Below are positions 424 to 4,271 of a stretch of DNA of 64,000 bases, one piece after another. Numbering within the stretch: the stretch's first letter is position 1; every line of letters begins with the position of its first letter. Origin of the DNA: Rhodoplanes serenus (GTDB lineage: Bacteria > Pseudomonadota > Alphaproteobacteria > Rhizobiales > Xanthobacteraceae); contig WNKV01000019.1 of assembly GCA_009720755.1 (NCBI GenBank), forward strand, positions 1 to 64,000, written 5' to 3'. The notes under the pieces were generated by a model. That model worked only from the letters and a program-made list of their open reading frames with translations. It was not told the DNA's origin and made no database searches. A program made the position numbers and the translations under genes.

Positions 424-2274
424 TCAGTACACCTTGCCGATCATCTTGATGTCGGCCCACACCTCGCGGACCGTCTGGGTCATCTCGATCTTGCGGTCGG
501 TATACCAGGTGTGCAGCAGGTGATGCGCCTTCTCGGAGTTGGGCGCGCCGAGATAATCGCGATAGAGCGCCTGGACCTGCGCGTTGCGGTGCGACTGGCG
601 CACCGGGCGGTCGCGGTCGATGCCGAACAGGGTGGCGCGCCGCTTGAGCGCGTGCGGCAGATACGCCTTCTTGGAGCGCAGCGTGCCGCCGCCGTCGACG
701 CAGCCGCCCGGGCACGCCATCACCTCGATGAAGTCGTAGTCGGCGGTGCCGGCCCGCACCGCCTCGACCACCTGGCGGGTCGGCTTGAGACCGTGGCACA
801 TCGCCACCTTCACGGTGCCGATGTCGCCGCCGAGATGCACCTGGGCGGCCCGCATGCCGTCGAAGCCGCGCAGCTGCTCGATCTCGGCCTGCTCCAGCTC
901 GCGGCCGTTGACGACGAAGTACATGGTGCGGATCGCCGCCTCCATGACGCCGCCGGTGGTGCCGAAGATGGCGCCGGCGCCCGAGTACTCGCTCATGTAC
1001 GGGTTGTCGAAGGTGGACGGCGGCAGCGACTTGAGGTCGATGCGCTCGCGTTGCAGCAGGCGGGCGAACTCGCGGGTCGACAGCACCACGTCGACCTCCG
1101 GCACCCCGTCGTGGATGAGCTGCCGCCGCGCGATCTCGTCCTTCTTGGCGATGCACGGCATGATCGAGATGACCCGGATGCGGGCCGGATCGATGCCCAT
1201 CTTCTCGGGCAGATAGGTCTTGGCGAGCGTGCCGACGCACTGCTGCGGCGACTTGGTGGTCGACAGCATCGGCATGATGTCGGGATAGTGCCGCTCGACG
1301 AAGTTGATCCAGGCCGGGCAGCACGACGAGAAGGTCGGCCGCTGTTTCTCGGCCAGCCGGTGCAGCAGCTCGGTGCCTTCCTCCATGATGACGAGGTCGG
1401 CGCCCCAGTTGGTGTCGAGCACGATGCCGGCGCCGAGCATCTTCAGCGCCGTGATGATCTGGCCCTCGACATTGGTGCCGGGCGGCAGGCCGAACTCCTC
1501 GCCGAAGCCGACCCGCACGGCGGGTGCGAACTGCACCACCGTGACGAGCTCGGGATCGTACATCATCTCGAGGGCGCGGTCGGTCTCGTCGCGCTCGCCG
1601 AGCGCGCCGGTCGGGCACACCAGCACGCACTGGCCGCACGTCACGCAGGCCGAGTTCTTCTGCGTCAGCCCATGACGCAACCCGACCGCGGTGTCGAGCC
1701 CGCTGCCGATCTGGATCAGCGCGTCGACGCCCTGGCCGTCGCGGCAGATGGCGATGCAGCGCTGGCAGCGGATGCAGCGCCTCATGTTGCGGATCAGCGC
1801 CGGCGAGGAATTGTCCACCGGCCGCGCCTCGACGCGGGCGGGATCGTAGAAGCGGTTCTGCCGCAGTCCGACGAACTGGGCGACGTCCTGGAGATCGCAC
1901 TTGCCGTGGCGGATGCAGGTGGCGCAGTCCTGGTCGTGGTCGGCGAGCAGCAGCTCGACCTGGAGCCGCTGCATCTCGCGCAGCTCCGGCGTGCGGGTGC
2001 GGATCTCGATGCCGTCCTGCATCGGCGTCGTGCAGGAGGCGACCAGGTGGGTCTTGTCGGAACCTTTGGTGCGGATCTCGACCAGGCACACCCGGCAGGT
2101 GCCGGGCGCGTGGTCGATGTCGGACAGCTCGCACAGGGTCGGGATGTAGACGTCGTGGCGGCGCGCGCAGTCGAGAATGGTCTCGTCGGAGCGGCCGTCC
2201 ACCGCGGTGCCGTTGATGGTTGCGGTCAGCGCGTCGGATTCGGGCTGGGCGATCTCGAAGGGGTCCATCGTCAT
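424..2274 (-). CDS. hydA: [FeFe]-hydrogenase, group A type, with NuoG-like N-terminal clusters
   Basis: A 616-residue protein that would reversibly reduce protons to H2 in the cytoplasm. Visible in order: a plant-type [2Fe-2S] domain (C48, C60, C63, C81); a His-ligated [4Fe-4S] site (H113, C117, C120, C126); two [4Fe-4S] ferredoxin motifs (C167/170/173/177 and C210/213/216/220); and the H-cluster domain. Its three signatures are SSCCPAW (314-322), MPCIAKK (372-378) and EVMACPGGC (517-525). This keeps all four H-cluster cysteines plus the proton-relay cysteine C318. The first residue of the first signature is Ser where Thr is usual. The ATG overlaps the stop of the upstream oxidoreductase as ATGA, implying translational coupling and a functional pair. 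No hydE, hydF or hydG maturase is in the window. Family identity is secure; the direction of electron flow is inferred. Confidence 0.95.
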   Translation of the reverse strand: MTMDPFEIAQPESDALTATINGTAVDGRSDETILDCARRHDVYIPTLCELSDIDHAPGTCRVCLVEIRTKGSDKTHLVASCTTPMQDGIEIRTRTPELREMQRLQVELLLADHDQDCATCIRHGKCDLQDVAQFVGLRQNRFYDPARVEARPVDNSSPALIRNMRRCIRCQRCIAICRDGQGVDALIQIGSGLDTAVGLRHGLTQKNSACVTCGQCVLVCPTGALGERDETDRALEMMYDPELVTVVQFAPAVRVGFGEEFGLPPGTNVEGQIITALKMLGAGIVLDTNWGADLVIMEEGTELLHRLAEKQRPTFSSCCPAWINFVERHYPDIMPMLSTTKSPQQCVGTLAKTYLPEKMGIDPARIRVISIMPCIAKKDEIARRQLIHDGVPEVDVVLSTREFARLLQRERIDLKSLPPSTFDNPYMSEYSGAGAIFGTTGGVMEAAIRTMYFVVNGRELEQAEIEQLRGFDGMRAAQVHLGGDIGTVKVAMCHGLKPTRQVVEAVRAGTADYDFIEVMACPGGCVDGGGTLRSKKAYLPHALKRRATLFGIDRDRPVRQSHRNAQVQALYRDYLGAPNSEKAHHLLHTWYTDRKIEMTQTVREVWADIKMIGKVY

Positions 2275-4271
2275 GCTCCGTTCGCGATCGCCCGCTCGGT
2301 GATCACCGAATAGGTGCGATAGCAGCGCATGCAGCGCTTGGCCTCGCGATACGCCTGCTCGGGGCTGATGGTCTGCTCGACCTCCTCGAACATCTGCCGG
2401 CGCACCGAGGGGTCCAGCTCGGGATGGTGCACGCGATACTGCGGCTTCACCGGCACCTCGACGGCGTCGTCGGCCAGCATGCGGTTGTCGTTGAGGAGCT
2501 GGCGCATGCGGGTGCGCGGCTGGAACATCACGCGGCCGAAGCGAATCCAGTCGTCGATGCTGCGGCTCGCCTTGAGGCCGTTGGACATCGCGTGAATCAG
2601 GGTCGACGGGCCGGAGGCGCAGTCGCCGCCGGCGAACACGCCGGGCCGCGAGGTGGCGAGGTCGACGGGATCGACCGCGACGCAGTTCCAGCGGTCGAAC
2701 TTGATGCCGTCGTCGGGGGTGAGGCAGCCCTTGCGCACCTGCTGGCCGATGGCCGCGATCAACGTGGTGCACGGCATGATGCGCTCGGTGCCGCCGAGCG
2801 GCTCGACGCCGCGGCGGCCATGGCCGTCCGGTGCGGTCCGGCGCATGTCGGTGACCTCGATGCCGGCGATCTGGCCGTCCTCGGCGACGATGCGGACCGG
2901 GCTGGTGAGGAAGTGGAACACGATGCCCTCGGCGATCGCCGCCTCCACCTCCTCGCTGTCGGCCGGCATGTCCTCGCGGGTGCGTCGATAGACGACATGC
3001 ACCTTGTCGGCGCCCATGCGCAGCGCCGAGCGGGCGCAGTCCATGGCGACGTTGCCGCCGCCGACGACGATCACCTCGCCCTCCAGCGTCACGTTGCGCA
3101 GGCCGGCGACATGGTCGTGCACTTCGAGCAGGAAGCCGATGCCGGACTTGTAGCCGGGGAGGCCGGGGTCCTCGCCGGGCACGCCGAGCCGGATGCCTTG
3201 CTGGCAGCCGATGGCGAGGAACACGGCGCGGTAGCCGCGGGCGAACAGGTCGTCGATGGAGAAGTCGCGGCCGAGCGCCCGGCCGAACAGGAAACGTCCG
3301 CCCAGCTCGGTGATGATGGCGGTCTCGGAGTGGAGAACGTGCTTGGGCAGCCGGTAGGCCGGAATGCCGATCGCCGCCATGCCGCCGGGCTCGTCCATCG
3401 CCTCCAGGATGTCGACGTGATAGCCGTGCAGCAGCAGGTGGTAGGCGCAGGAGACGCCGGCCGGCCCGGCGCCCACCACCGCGACCCGCATGTCGGCGCC
3501 GCGCGGTTGCGAGATCAGCTCGCGGCCGAAGGCCAGCGCGTTGGGGCCGGACTGCTGGTCGGCGACGTAGCGCTTCAGCGTCTTGATGCCGACCGCCTCG
3601 TCGACGAACTTGCGCCGGCACGCCATCTCGCAGAAGCGCACGCAGACGCGGCCGCAGGTCGCCGCCATCGGGTACTTCTGGAGGATGACGCCGAGCGAGT
3701 GGGCCGGCTTGCCGTCACGGATGTAGTCGATATAGCGCGGCACGTTGATGCGCGACGGGCACGCCTCGATGCAGGGCGCCGTCATGTAGGCCAGGCCGTG
3801 CTGATCGGGCTGCGGCCCGCGGGCGATCTCGGCCTCGATCACCTCGCGGAAGCTGCGCAGCGCCGCCAAGAGCGCGCGGGCGCAGGTCTGGCCGAGGCCG
3901 CACATGGAGGTGGCGGTCATCTGGTCGGCCAGCATCTCGATGTCGTCGAGACCGAGCTGGCTCCTGGTGCCGCGCCGGAGCGCACCGAGCGCGTCGCGCA
4001 GCAGCACGGTCCCCATTCGGCACGGCGTGCACTTGCCGCACGCCTGGTCGGCCGCCTCGTCCATCTGGCGCCACAGGGCGTCGATCAGGCTGACGGTGGA
4101 ATCGAAGATGAAGAAGCCGCGGTCGCCGAAGAAGGCGCGGATGCGGTTGTGCTCGTCGAACGTCTCGAAGTTCGTGAGCATCGGAAAGGGATGATTGGTC
4201 CGGATCGGTCCCGCACCGTCGCGGTTGTCGTAGACGATACCGTCCCAGACACCGTAGCTGACCTCGGTCAT
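2271..4271 (-). CDS. Fusion of NuoF C-terminal FeS domain with GltD-like NAD(P)H:FAD oxidoreductase, hydrogenase partner
   Basis: A 666-residue protein. Residues 1-150 match the C-terminal iron-sulfur part of NuoF/HndC (CGKCTPC with C78, C81, C84, then C124 in SMCGLGQ) but lack the NADH/FMN-binding half. Residues 160-235 are the N-terminal FeS domain of the glutamate synthase small subunit (C167, C171, C206, C210, C214, C218). From 265 onward come the FAD fold (VVGAGPAG) and, later, a NAD(P)H fold (VVGGGNVAMD). A CMRC pair lies near the C-terminus. The natural reading is a flavoprotein passing electrons between NAD(P)H and the hydrogenase encoded next door through its NuoF-like cluster. No GltB large subunit is adjacent, so glutamate synthesis is unlikely. 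Cofactor preference (NADPH or NADH) and electron bifurcation are not decided by sequence. Confidence 0.85.
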   Translation of the reverse strand: MTEVSYGVWDGIVYDNRDGAGPIRTNHPFPMLTNFETFDEHNRIRAFFGDRGFFIFDSTVSLIDALWRQMDEAADQACGKCTPCRMGTVLLRDALGALRRGTRSQLGLDDIEMLADQMTATSMCGLGQTCARALLAALRSFREVIEAEIARGPQPDQHGLAYMTAPCIEACPSRINVPRYIDYIRDGKPAHSLGVILQKYPMAATCGRVCVRFCEMACRRKFVDEAVGIKTLKRYVADQQSGPNALAFGRELISQPRGADMRVAVVGAGPAGVSCAYHLLLHGYHVDILEAMDEPGGMAAIGIPAYRLPKHVLHSETAIITELGGRFLFGRALGRDFSIDDLFARGYRAVFLAIGCQQGIRLGVPGEDPGLPGYKSGIGFLLEVHDHVAGLRNVTLEGEVIVVGGGNVAMDCARSALRMGADKVHVVYRRTREDMPADSEEVEAAIAEGIVFHFLTSPVRIVAEDGQIAGIEVTDMRRTAPDGHGRRGVEPLGGTERIMPCTTLIAAIGQQVRKGCLTPDDGIKFDRWNCVAVDPVDLATSRPGVFAGGDCASGPSTLIHAMSNGLKASRSIDDWIRFGRVMFQPRTRMRQLLNDNRMLADDAVEVPVKPQYRVHHPELDPSVRRQMFEEVEQTISPEQAYREAKRCMRCYRTYSVITERAIANGA

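Follow-up and report, generated by a model that had tools for sequence, protein, structure and literature searches.

Near the start of the stretch analysed here, 64,000 nucleotides of Rhodoplanes serenus DNA (contig WNKV01000019.1; hereafter the window), the gene for an [FeFe]-hydrogenase catalytic subunit, hydA, overlaps a gene that joins the iron-sulfur end of NuoF to a GltD-like flavoprotein. The stronger of our findings is that an intact H-cluster pocket, apparently kept under selection, occurs repeatedly in genomes in which neither HydG nor HydF could be detected. For the pair itself we propose, at roughly even odds (about 0.5), that it forms a compact, non-bifurcating, NADP(H)-linked dimer of the [FeFe]-hydrogenase type, similar to HydDB group A2 and still functional; it would most likely act on H2/H+ and receive its two-iron subcluster by a route that is not identifiable as HydEFG.

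Domain make-up of the pair

Both genes lie exactly at the positions given in an earlier note on this DNA, and the ATGA overlap by which that note had coupled them was confirmed at 2274-2271. The features of the pair are:

2271..4271, (-) strand: NuoF-tail/GltD fusion flavoprotein, 666 amino acids (domain searches, PDB matches, fold comparison)
3831..4079, (-) strand: NuoF-type [4Fe-4S] (N3-like) domain of the fusion, residues 65-147, with Cys78/81/84/124 (PF10589, NADH_4Fe-4S)
3552..3782, (-) strand: GltD/DPD-type two-cluster domain of the fusion (Fer4_20), residues 164-240 (Pfam)
2577..3491, (-) strand: flavin adenine dinucleotide (FAD) and NAD(P)H Rossmann domains of the fusion (Pyr_redox_2), residues 261-565 (Pfam, fold comparison)
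2322..2333, (-) strand: C-terminal CxxC of the fusion, Cys647/Cys650 (invariant in 24 aligned fusions)
2271..2274, (-) strand: ATGA stop/start overlap of the fusion and hydA (sequence)
424..2274, (-) strand: hydA, [FeFe]-hydrogenase catalytic subunit, M3 type, 616 amino acids (Pfam, NCBIfam, PDB alignment)
1990..2235, (-) strand: [2Fe-2S] domain of HydA (PF13510)
1852..1968, (-) strand: NuoG-like [4Fe-4S] domain of HydA with a His ligand (PF10588)
1600..1782, (-) strand: 2x[4Fe-4S] ferredoxin-like domain of HydA (Fer4 models)
688..1542, (-) strand: H-cluster domain of HydA, L1/L2/L3 motifs intact (PF02906)
493..648, (-) strand: small-subunit-like C-terminal domain of HydA (PF02256)

HydA matched the Pfam model Fe_hyd_lg_C with 296 bits, and also Fe_hyd_SSU, Fer2_4, NADH-G_4Fe-4S_3 and 4Fe-4S ferredoxin models. 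With the NCBIfam group A model TIGR02512 it reached 503.1 bits (cut-off 405.95); the best NCBIfam model, NF040763 (group A6), gave 707.2 bits, under its cut-off of 765. Residues were matched to the numbering of CpI through a PDB alignment, and the roles named here (ligand, pocket, proton path) are those we presume them to have. As the earlier note had described, the H-cluster is intact and the cluster relay full: all four H-cluster cysteines are there (C319, C374, C521, C525) and the relay ligands are complete (C48, C60, C63, C81; H113, C117, C120, C126; C167, C170, C173, C177; C210, C213, C216, C220). HydA thus has the L1, L2 and L3 motifs, the four cysteines and the proton-path residues of a group A catalytic subunit, and what was not found in its source genome, for membership in that class, is the set of HydE, HydF and HydG.

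The fusion also bore out its earlier description, with NADH_4Fe-4S, Fer4_20 and Pyr_redox_2 all found; Pfam gave no match in it or in HydA for PF01512, the flavin mononucleotide (FMN) domain, or for PF01257. Its match to NuoF is partial (TIGR01959, 59.7 bits against a cut-off of 558.65, over profile positions 299-410 of 410), and its sequence similarity to a solved HydB chain starts at residue 3. Cys78/81/84/124 and Cys167/171/206/210/214/218 are invariant in the 24 aligned fusions, as are Y428-R429-R430 and M435-P436-A437. We propose that Cys647/Cys650 would complete the first GltD cluster together with Cys167/171; in the structure model of the fusion both stretches have a predicted local distance difference test score (pLDDT) below 50.

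Among solved structures the fusion comes closest, in both fold and sequence, to the GltD-carrying subunits of NfnABC and StnABC, and next to NfnI/NfnB-type chains, DPD and GltD. These families use NADPH and, for this reason and because of the invariant Y428-R-R and M435-P-A residues, the fusion probably prefers NADP(H) over NAD(H). Because the FMN/NADH half of NuoF is missing from the window form, we read the pair as a non-bifurcating dimer. NADP(H) would be read by the FAD of the GltD module, and electrons would run through the two GltD [4Fe-4S] clusters to the NuoF-type cluster and on through the NuoG-like relay of HydA to the H-cluster.

Occurrence of the pair, the maturases and the H-cluster pocket

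In a survey of 385 genomes of the class, that of the window included, the fusion query, run at E <= 1e-60 with up to three candidates scored in each genome, matched 59, and the window's genome alone at full length; the next best was confined to residues 161-651 (39% identity), which is the GltD part. HydA (E <= 1e-60) was present in 19 of the 385, the best other by score being 44% identical. Near hydA, the NuoF tail of the fusion found a match in 16 of the 18 other HydA loci of the class (exceptions L056 and L057), and two of the class loci, L044 and L054, have a full HydB-like frame.

A contig scan with a HydA alignment returned 591 stretches. Among the best 80, which makes the counts lower bounds, the fusion lies upstream of hydA in at least 13 loci, nine with the short form of the window and four with a longer form. 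The short form was seen in Rhodovulum sp. PH10, Xanthobacteraceae Astr-EGSB 3, Magnetospirillum fulvum, BP7.bin56, Aliiruegeria lutimaris and metagenome-assembled genomes (MAGs) of Geminicoccaceae, Verrucomicrobium (L061, the fusion cut by the contig start), Ancalomicrobiaceae and Desulfobulbaceae. A GltD-like piece at a contig end 5 kb from hydA (L121) was not counted as a pair, and the upstream flank was unusable for the HydA of L066 (57%) and L067 (47%). Among 298 genomes of relatives, 15 carry HydA at E <= 1e-130, the window's included; these comprise five of the six genomes of its genus (own included), the exception, G404, being 58% complete. In each of the 14 relatives, within which PH10 and Astr-EGSB 3 are taken as G402 and G439, the fusion is directly upstream of hydA, with gaps of -4 to +32 bases between script-chosen starts.

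Every close HydA relative with enough flank therefore has the fusion directly upstream, and the link to hydA drawn by the earlier note is supported in the nine loci and the 14 relatives. The one test of the other direction, of the fusion to hydA, gave no other full-length fusion match in the 385 class genomes; the pair loci were found through hydA, so they tell in what share of cases this hydA is accompanied by the fusion but not the converse, and cannot show that the fusion never stands alone. Plasmid-borne relatives of this clade were not found among 72,556 plasmid records, 15 of which matched at E <= 1e-60 (best identity 42.5%). The pair recurs in other Proteobacteria and is not unique to the window and, because many genomes hold homologues of both genes in the same order, it is on sequence grounds not a chance arrangement.

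The earlier note had suggested looking for hydEFG elsewhere in the genome, and had counted their absence against its proposal of a compact two-subunit NAD(P)H-linked hydrogenase. In profile searches of the window's genome (5.50 Mb in 51 contigs, 99.71% complete, a single PF02906 match) none passed its cut-off: HydG gave no hit, HydF at best 77.6 bits over the GTPase part only (cut-off 325.55) and HydE at best 32.5 bits (cut-off 254.6). The compact enzyme nevertheless is the natural reading and seems likely to be right in outline; it is the expected maturases that failed to appear. The same was found in a set of 17 genomes, called maturase-less here, which consists of the window's genome (G000), the 14 relatives, Aliiruegeria and the Geminicoccaceae MAG. 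With thresholds of E <= 0.001 for HydG and E <= 1e-30 for HydF, HydG was over cut-off in none of the 17 (lone weak match of 22.2 bits in G655) and HydF was found in none; in five of them (G000, PH10, Astr-EGSB 3, Aliiruegeria and Geminicoccaceae) HydE reached 28.7-32.5 bits or gave no hit. Four of these genomes without HydG and HydF (G475, G496, G524 and G567) are each assembled as one contig, with completeness rated at 100%.

As positive controls, the same searches placed HydE, HydF and HydG over cut-off in M. fulvum, Ancalomicrobiaceae, Desulfobulbaceae, L069, L120 and Moorella, and the same pair is also carried by relatives that have HydEFG. Partial sets were seen in L074 (HydE and HydG found, HydF not) and in BP7 (L062) and a Sutterella MAG (L067), with HydE and HydF found and HydG not; in the Verrucomicrobium (L061) and Accumulibacter (L066) MAGs none of the three was over cut-off. 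Seven control genomes, E. coli among them, also matched the HydG model, T. maritima alone over its cut-off; the model therefore reaches distant radical S-adenosylmethionine relatives. In 18 other alphaproteobacterial genomes with hydA (HydA E <= 1e-60), HydG was over cut-off in nine, in two pieces in one (G002) and not over cut-off in eight, with no hit in G038, G089, G090, G166, G183 and G201 and weak hits in G050 and G153. Five of these without a hit (G038, G089, G090, G201 and G183) are at least 96% complete, four of the five are 1.1-1.5 Mb, and all carry a different HydA; maturase-less HydA is therefore wider than the window's clade.

On a 33-row HydA tree, the 17 maturase-less and eight maturase-bearing rows need two label changes, the 17 forming two HydA clades; eight rows are unlabelled, BP7 and L074, with one maturase unmatched each, are counted as maturase-bearing, and some long branches are unsure. 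Maturase loss, or transfer into maturase-less hosts, therefore happened at least twice unless maturases were regained. Both clades keep the pair across several genera, and both reading frames are open in all 17 genomes. On a FastTree phylogeny of the 17 HydA (length 1.9), we counted zero changes at the four H-cluster cysteines and the 16 relay ligands, and 19 of 20 pocket or proton-path positions, picked from the CpI literature, are likewise without change, against a mean of 1.33 changes per column in the H-domain (columns 240-599); random sets of 20 columns were equally conserved in 2 of 20,000 draws. For both genes, the ratio of nonsynonymous to synonymous substitution rates (dN/dS) was 0.05-0.38 in 13 maturase-less pairs chosen from the 136 possible ones and 0.29-0.42 in three maturase-bearing pairs (among M. 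fulvum, BP7 and Ancalomicrobiaceae); the Nei-Gojobori counting used is simple and is distorted by very high GC. The conservation points to purifying selection on the H-cluster pocket in maturase-less lineages and argues against plain inactivity of their HydA.

The longer form consists of frames of 998-1028 amino acids upstream of hydA in L069, L074, L120 and L132. In Moorella (L132) the frame opens with a NuoE-like remnant and contains PF01512, NADH_4Fe-4S, Fer4_20 and GltD domains, and a NuoE-like gene is also present on its own; L069 is alike except that the remnant is missing. The fusion of the window most likely arose when such a Moorella-type NuoF-GltD protein lost its FMN/NADH half. The bifurcating site of HydABC is taken to be the flavin, which would go with that half. 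The HydA proteins next to the long fusions (L132, L069, L074, L120) have TSCSPGW in L1, with a Ser aligned to CpI Cys300, which we take to be a cluster ligand, and the same motif is present in the solved HydA1 7q4v. A second HydA, about 40% identical and with the TSCSPGW motif, occurs at L201:8910-10838 (G496) and L202:9600-11531 (G446); both genomes have the window-type pair, and HydG and HydF were not found in them.

Neighbouring genes and competing explanations

An SsuA/NMT1-type binding protein lies beside the pair or within about 5 kb of it in nine of the 17 maturase-less genomes (Aliiruegeria, Astr-EGSB 3, Geminicoccaceae, G430, G496, G524, G567, G633 and G668), in varying orders and strands. 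The nine are mutually 36-95% identical over all 36 pairs, and Pfam backs the SsuA/NMT1 type in five of the six that were scanned (Aliiruegeria, Astr-EGSB 3, G430, G668, G496); it gave no match for the sixth, the Geminicoccaceae protein. Permease and ATPase of the importer are Pfam-confirmed in Aliiruegeria and the ATPase alone in Geminicoccaceae, being assigned by clustering or unseen elsewhere, and hydA of Astr-EGSB 3 is separated from the binding protein by a TonB receptor. The ATP-binding cassette (ABC) importer genes of the SsuA/NMT1 type near the pair are located at:

L064:10838-13334
L191:7884-9660
L060:13495-17014 (with a TonB receptor)

Distant binding proteins also follow hydA in the Desulfobulbaceae MAG (L065; 21-24% identity in seven of nine comparisons), and in BP7 (L062:2604-4319) a single frame combining an ABC ATPase with an SsuA-type binding protein, unmatched to the nine at E <= 1e-3, sits between hydE and hydF, upstream of the fusion. 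The gene calls of the five genomes of the window's genus and of G446, G475 and G655 held no member of the importer cluster; the window's contig ends 424 bases past hydA. The window opens that contig (C10), so that the downstream side of the pair ends there, and the gene upstream of the fusion is weakly GDSL-lipase-like by Pfam. Upstream of the fusion, consensus motifs of sigma-54, NifA and RegR were found in none of 21 loci and FNR-like sites with two mismatches in four of the 21. At the contig start beside hydA, positions 101-350 of the window hold four CRISPR-like repeats at a spacing of about 67-70 nucleotides, two copies being 67% and 77% identical to the first.

According to the explanation that we favour, the HydEFG genes would have gone from two HydA clades, the H-cluster pocket would have been kept under purifying selection, and the two-iron subcluster would arrive by a route not recognisable as HydEFG; it is because the pocket seems to be under selection although HydEFG has gone that we think the protein still in use. 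That it is an active [FeFe]-hydrogenase obtaining this subcluster through a novel maturation pathway, or through uptake of a precursor from neighbouring cells as a cofactor auxotroph, we put forward tentatively, and for the latter the SsuA-type importer seen in nine of the 17 genomes, with a TonB receptor in one, is a candidate entry route. Possible, and less probable than a functional hydrogenase, is that HydA has been repurposed and holds a [4Fe-4S] cubane only, the pair being an NADPH-dependent reductase or sensor with a non-proton target, perhaps a compound brought in by the importer. Both the failure to find HydG and HydF in the 17 genomes and the related binding proteins near nine of the pairs would fit such a role. 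However, the equivalents of CpI C299, K358, Q325, S323, P324, M353, F417, E279, E282 and S319, which we take to be contacts of the two-iron subcluster or proton carriers, never change in the 17, and importers also stand near the pair in the Desulfobulbaceae MAG and BP7, which have all or most maturases, so that they are no mark of loss.

Two further explanations fare worse. A decaying relic, non-functional since maturase loss, might be expected given that we know of no route to the canonical H-cluster without maturases; it is quite unlikely in view of the open frames in 17 of 17 genomes, the low dN/dS, the unchanged 16 relay ligands and four H-cluster cysteines, and two clades that retain the pair across genera. 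Least likely is an ordinary HydEFG-dependent hydrogenase whose maturation genes fell into assembly gaps: the window does start at the contig start, 424 bases from hydA, and in BP7, where hydE and hydF lie upstream of the fusion, the end of the contig may have removed the missing hydG, but the four complete single-contig relatives also lack HydG and HydF, the window's own genome is almost complete and the contigs continue past hydA in the 14 relatives.

Several points weigh against a functional hydrogenase. HydA made without maturases is normally an inactive apo-protein. Conservation does not reveal whether the pocket performs H2 chemistry or a different reaction, and 52% of the H-domain columns are unchanged in the 17 in any case; the one listed position that does vary, CpI T356, changes three times and is Ile in the window's HydA, as it also is in the solved bifurcating HydA1 8a6t. 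Structure prediction for the fusion was weak (mean pLDDT 70.5), giving a clear fold family and poorly predicted cluster regions. The HydE search covered five of the 17 genomes, and a completeness rating is not given for Aliiruegeria and the Geminicoccaceae MAG. Missing HydG had to be rejected as a trait specific to this clade, as 8 of the 18 other alphaproteobacterial hydA genomes are likewise without it. Finally, in the part of PMC4967309 consulted, alphaproteobacterial HydA such as that of Rhodospirillum rubrum is judged probably inactive or in another role, the maturases being missing, and some Rhodospirillales are said to possess all of them.

With these findings, the old remark that such HydA are 'probably inactive' or have another role can be put to the test in named strains, for example Aliiruegeria lutimaris DSM 25294 and Rhodovulum sp. 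PH10. Should the cofactor be present, there is a second way of assembling the H-cluster; should it be absent, the fold of a hydrogenase has been preserved to serve a different NADPH-linked reaction.

Comparison with known systems

The novelty is smaller than the earlier note implied. In the retrieved part of PMC5037454, HydA adjacent to GltD is HydDB group A2, 'glutamate synthase-linked, putative', with a downstream GltA/GltD-type protein, no NuoF and a role given as 'undetermined'; a maturase-less alphaproteobacterial HydA is likewise in print for R. rubrum in the part of PMC4967309 consulted. The portions of PMC8924675, PMC6288185, PMC6085437 and PMC11338639 that were retrieved contain no description of a NuoF-tail/GltD fusion, and full-text searches, with most subscription journals outside their scope, listed no paper with a title or displayed abstract on a maturase-less HydA clade with such a fusion.

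Trimeric HydABC (A3/A6) has the same cluster layout in HydA, and the best, sub-cut-off NCBIfam model of our HydA is A6. The pair differs from it in that no adjacent complete NuoF with an FMN site was found and no NuoE-type gene was seen upstream, the other side being limited to 424 bases by the contig end. NfnABC and StnABC, the best PDB matches of the fusion, also bring a GltD-type module into a complex with NuoF-type subunits; they have no H-cluster subunit, and in them the NuoF-type part forms a chain of its own, which is longer (602 and 584 amino acids), whereas the window has no complete NuoF-type subunit beside its GltD module. R. rubrum and Entamoeba resemble the window's genome in holding HydA without HydEFG (PMC4967309, in part).

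The long pairs of Moorella thermoacetica and deltaproteobacterial MAGs (L132, L069, L074, L120) are closer in design, with the same C-terminal module order and the fusion upstream of hydA at 23-329 nucleotides. They differ in keeping the FMN/NADH domain, as seen in L132 and L069, and in their maturases, HydG and HydE being found in all four genomes and HydF in three (not L074). With HydDB group A2, as set out in the retrieved part of PMC5037454, the pair shares a gene adjoining hydA that encodes a GltD-type protein; the window's partner has a NuoF tail in addition and lies upstream, whereas the HydDB rule, which uses CDD, names a downstream protein, and neither HydG nor HydF was found in any of the 17 genomes that make up the two clades. 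The architecture is thus a variant of a known group, resembling HydDB A2, and for this poorly known group a concrete electron path, as we infer it, can be given, together with probable descent from a full NuoF-GltD protein.

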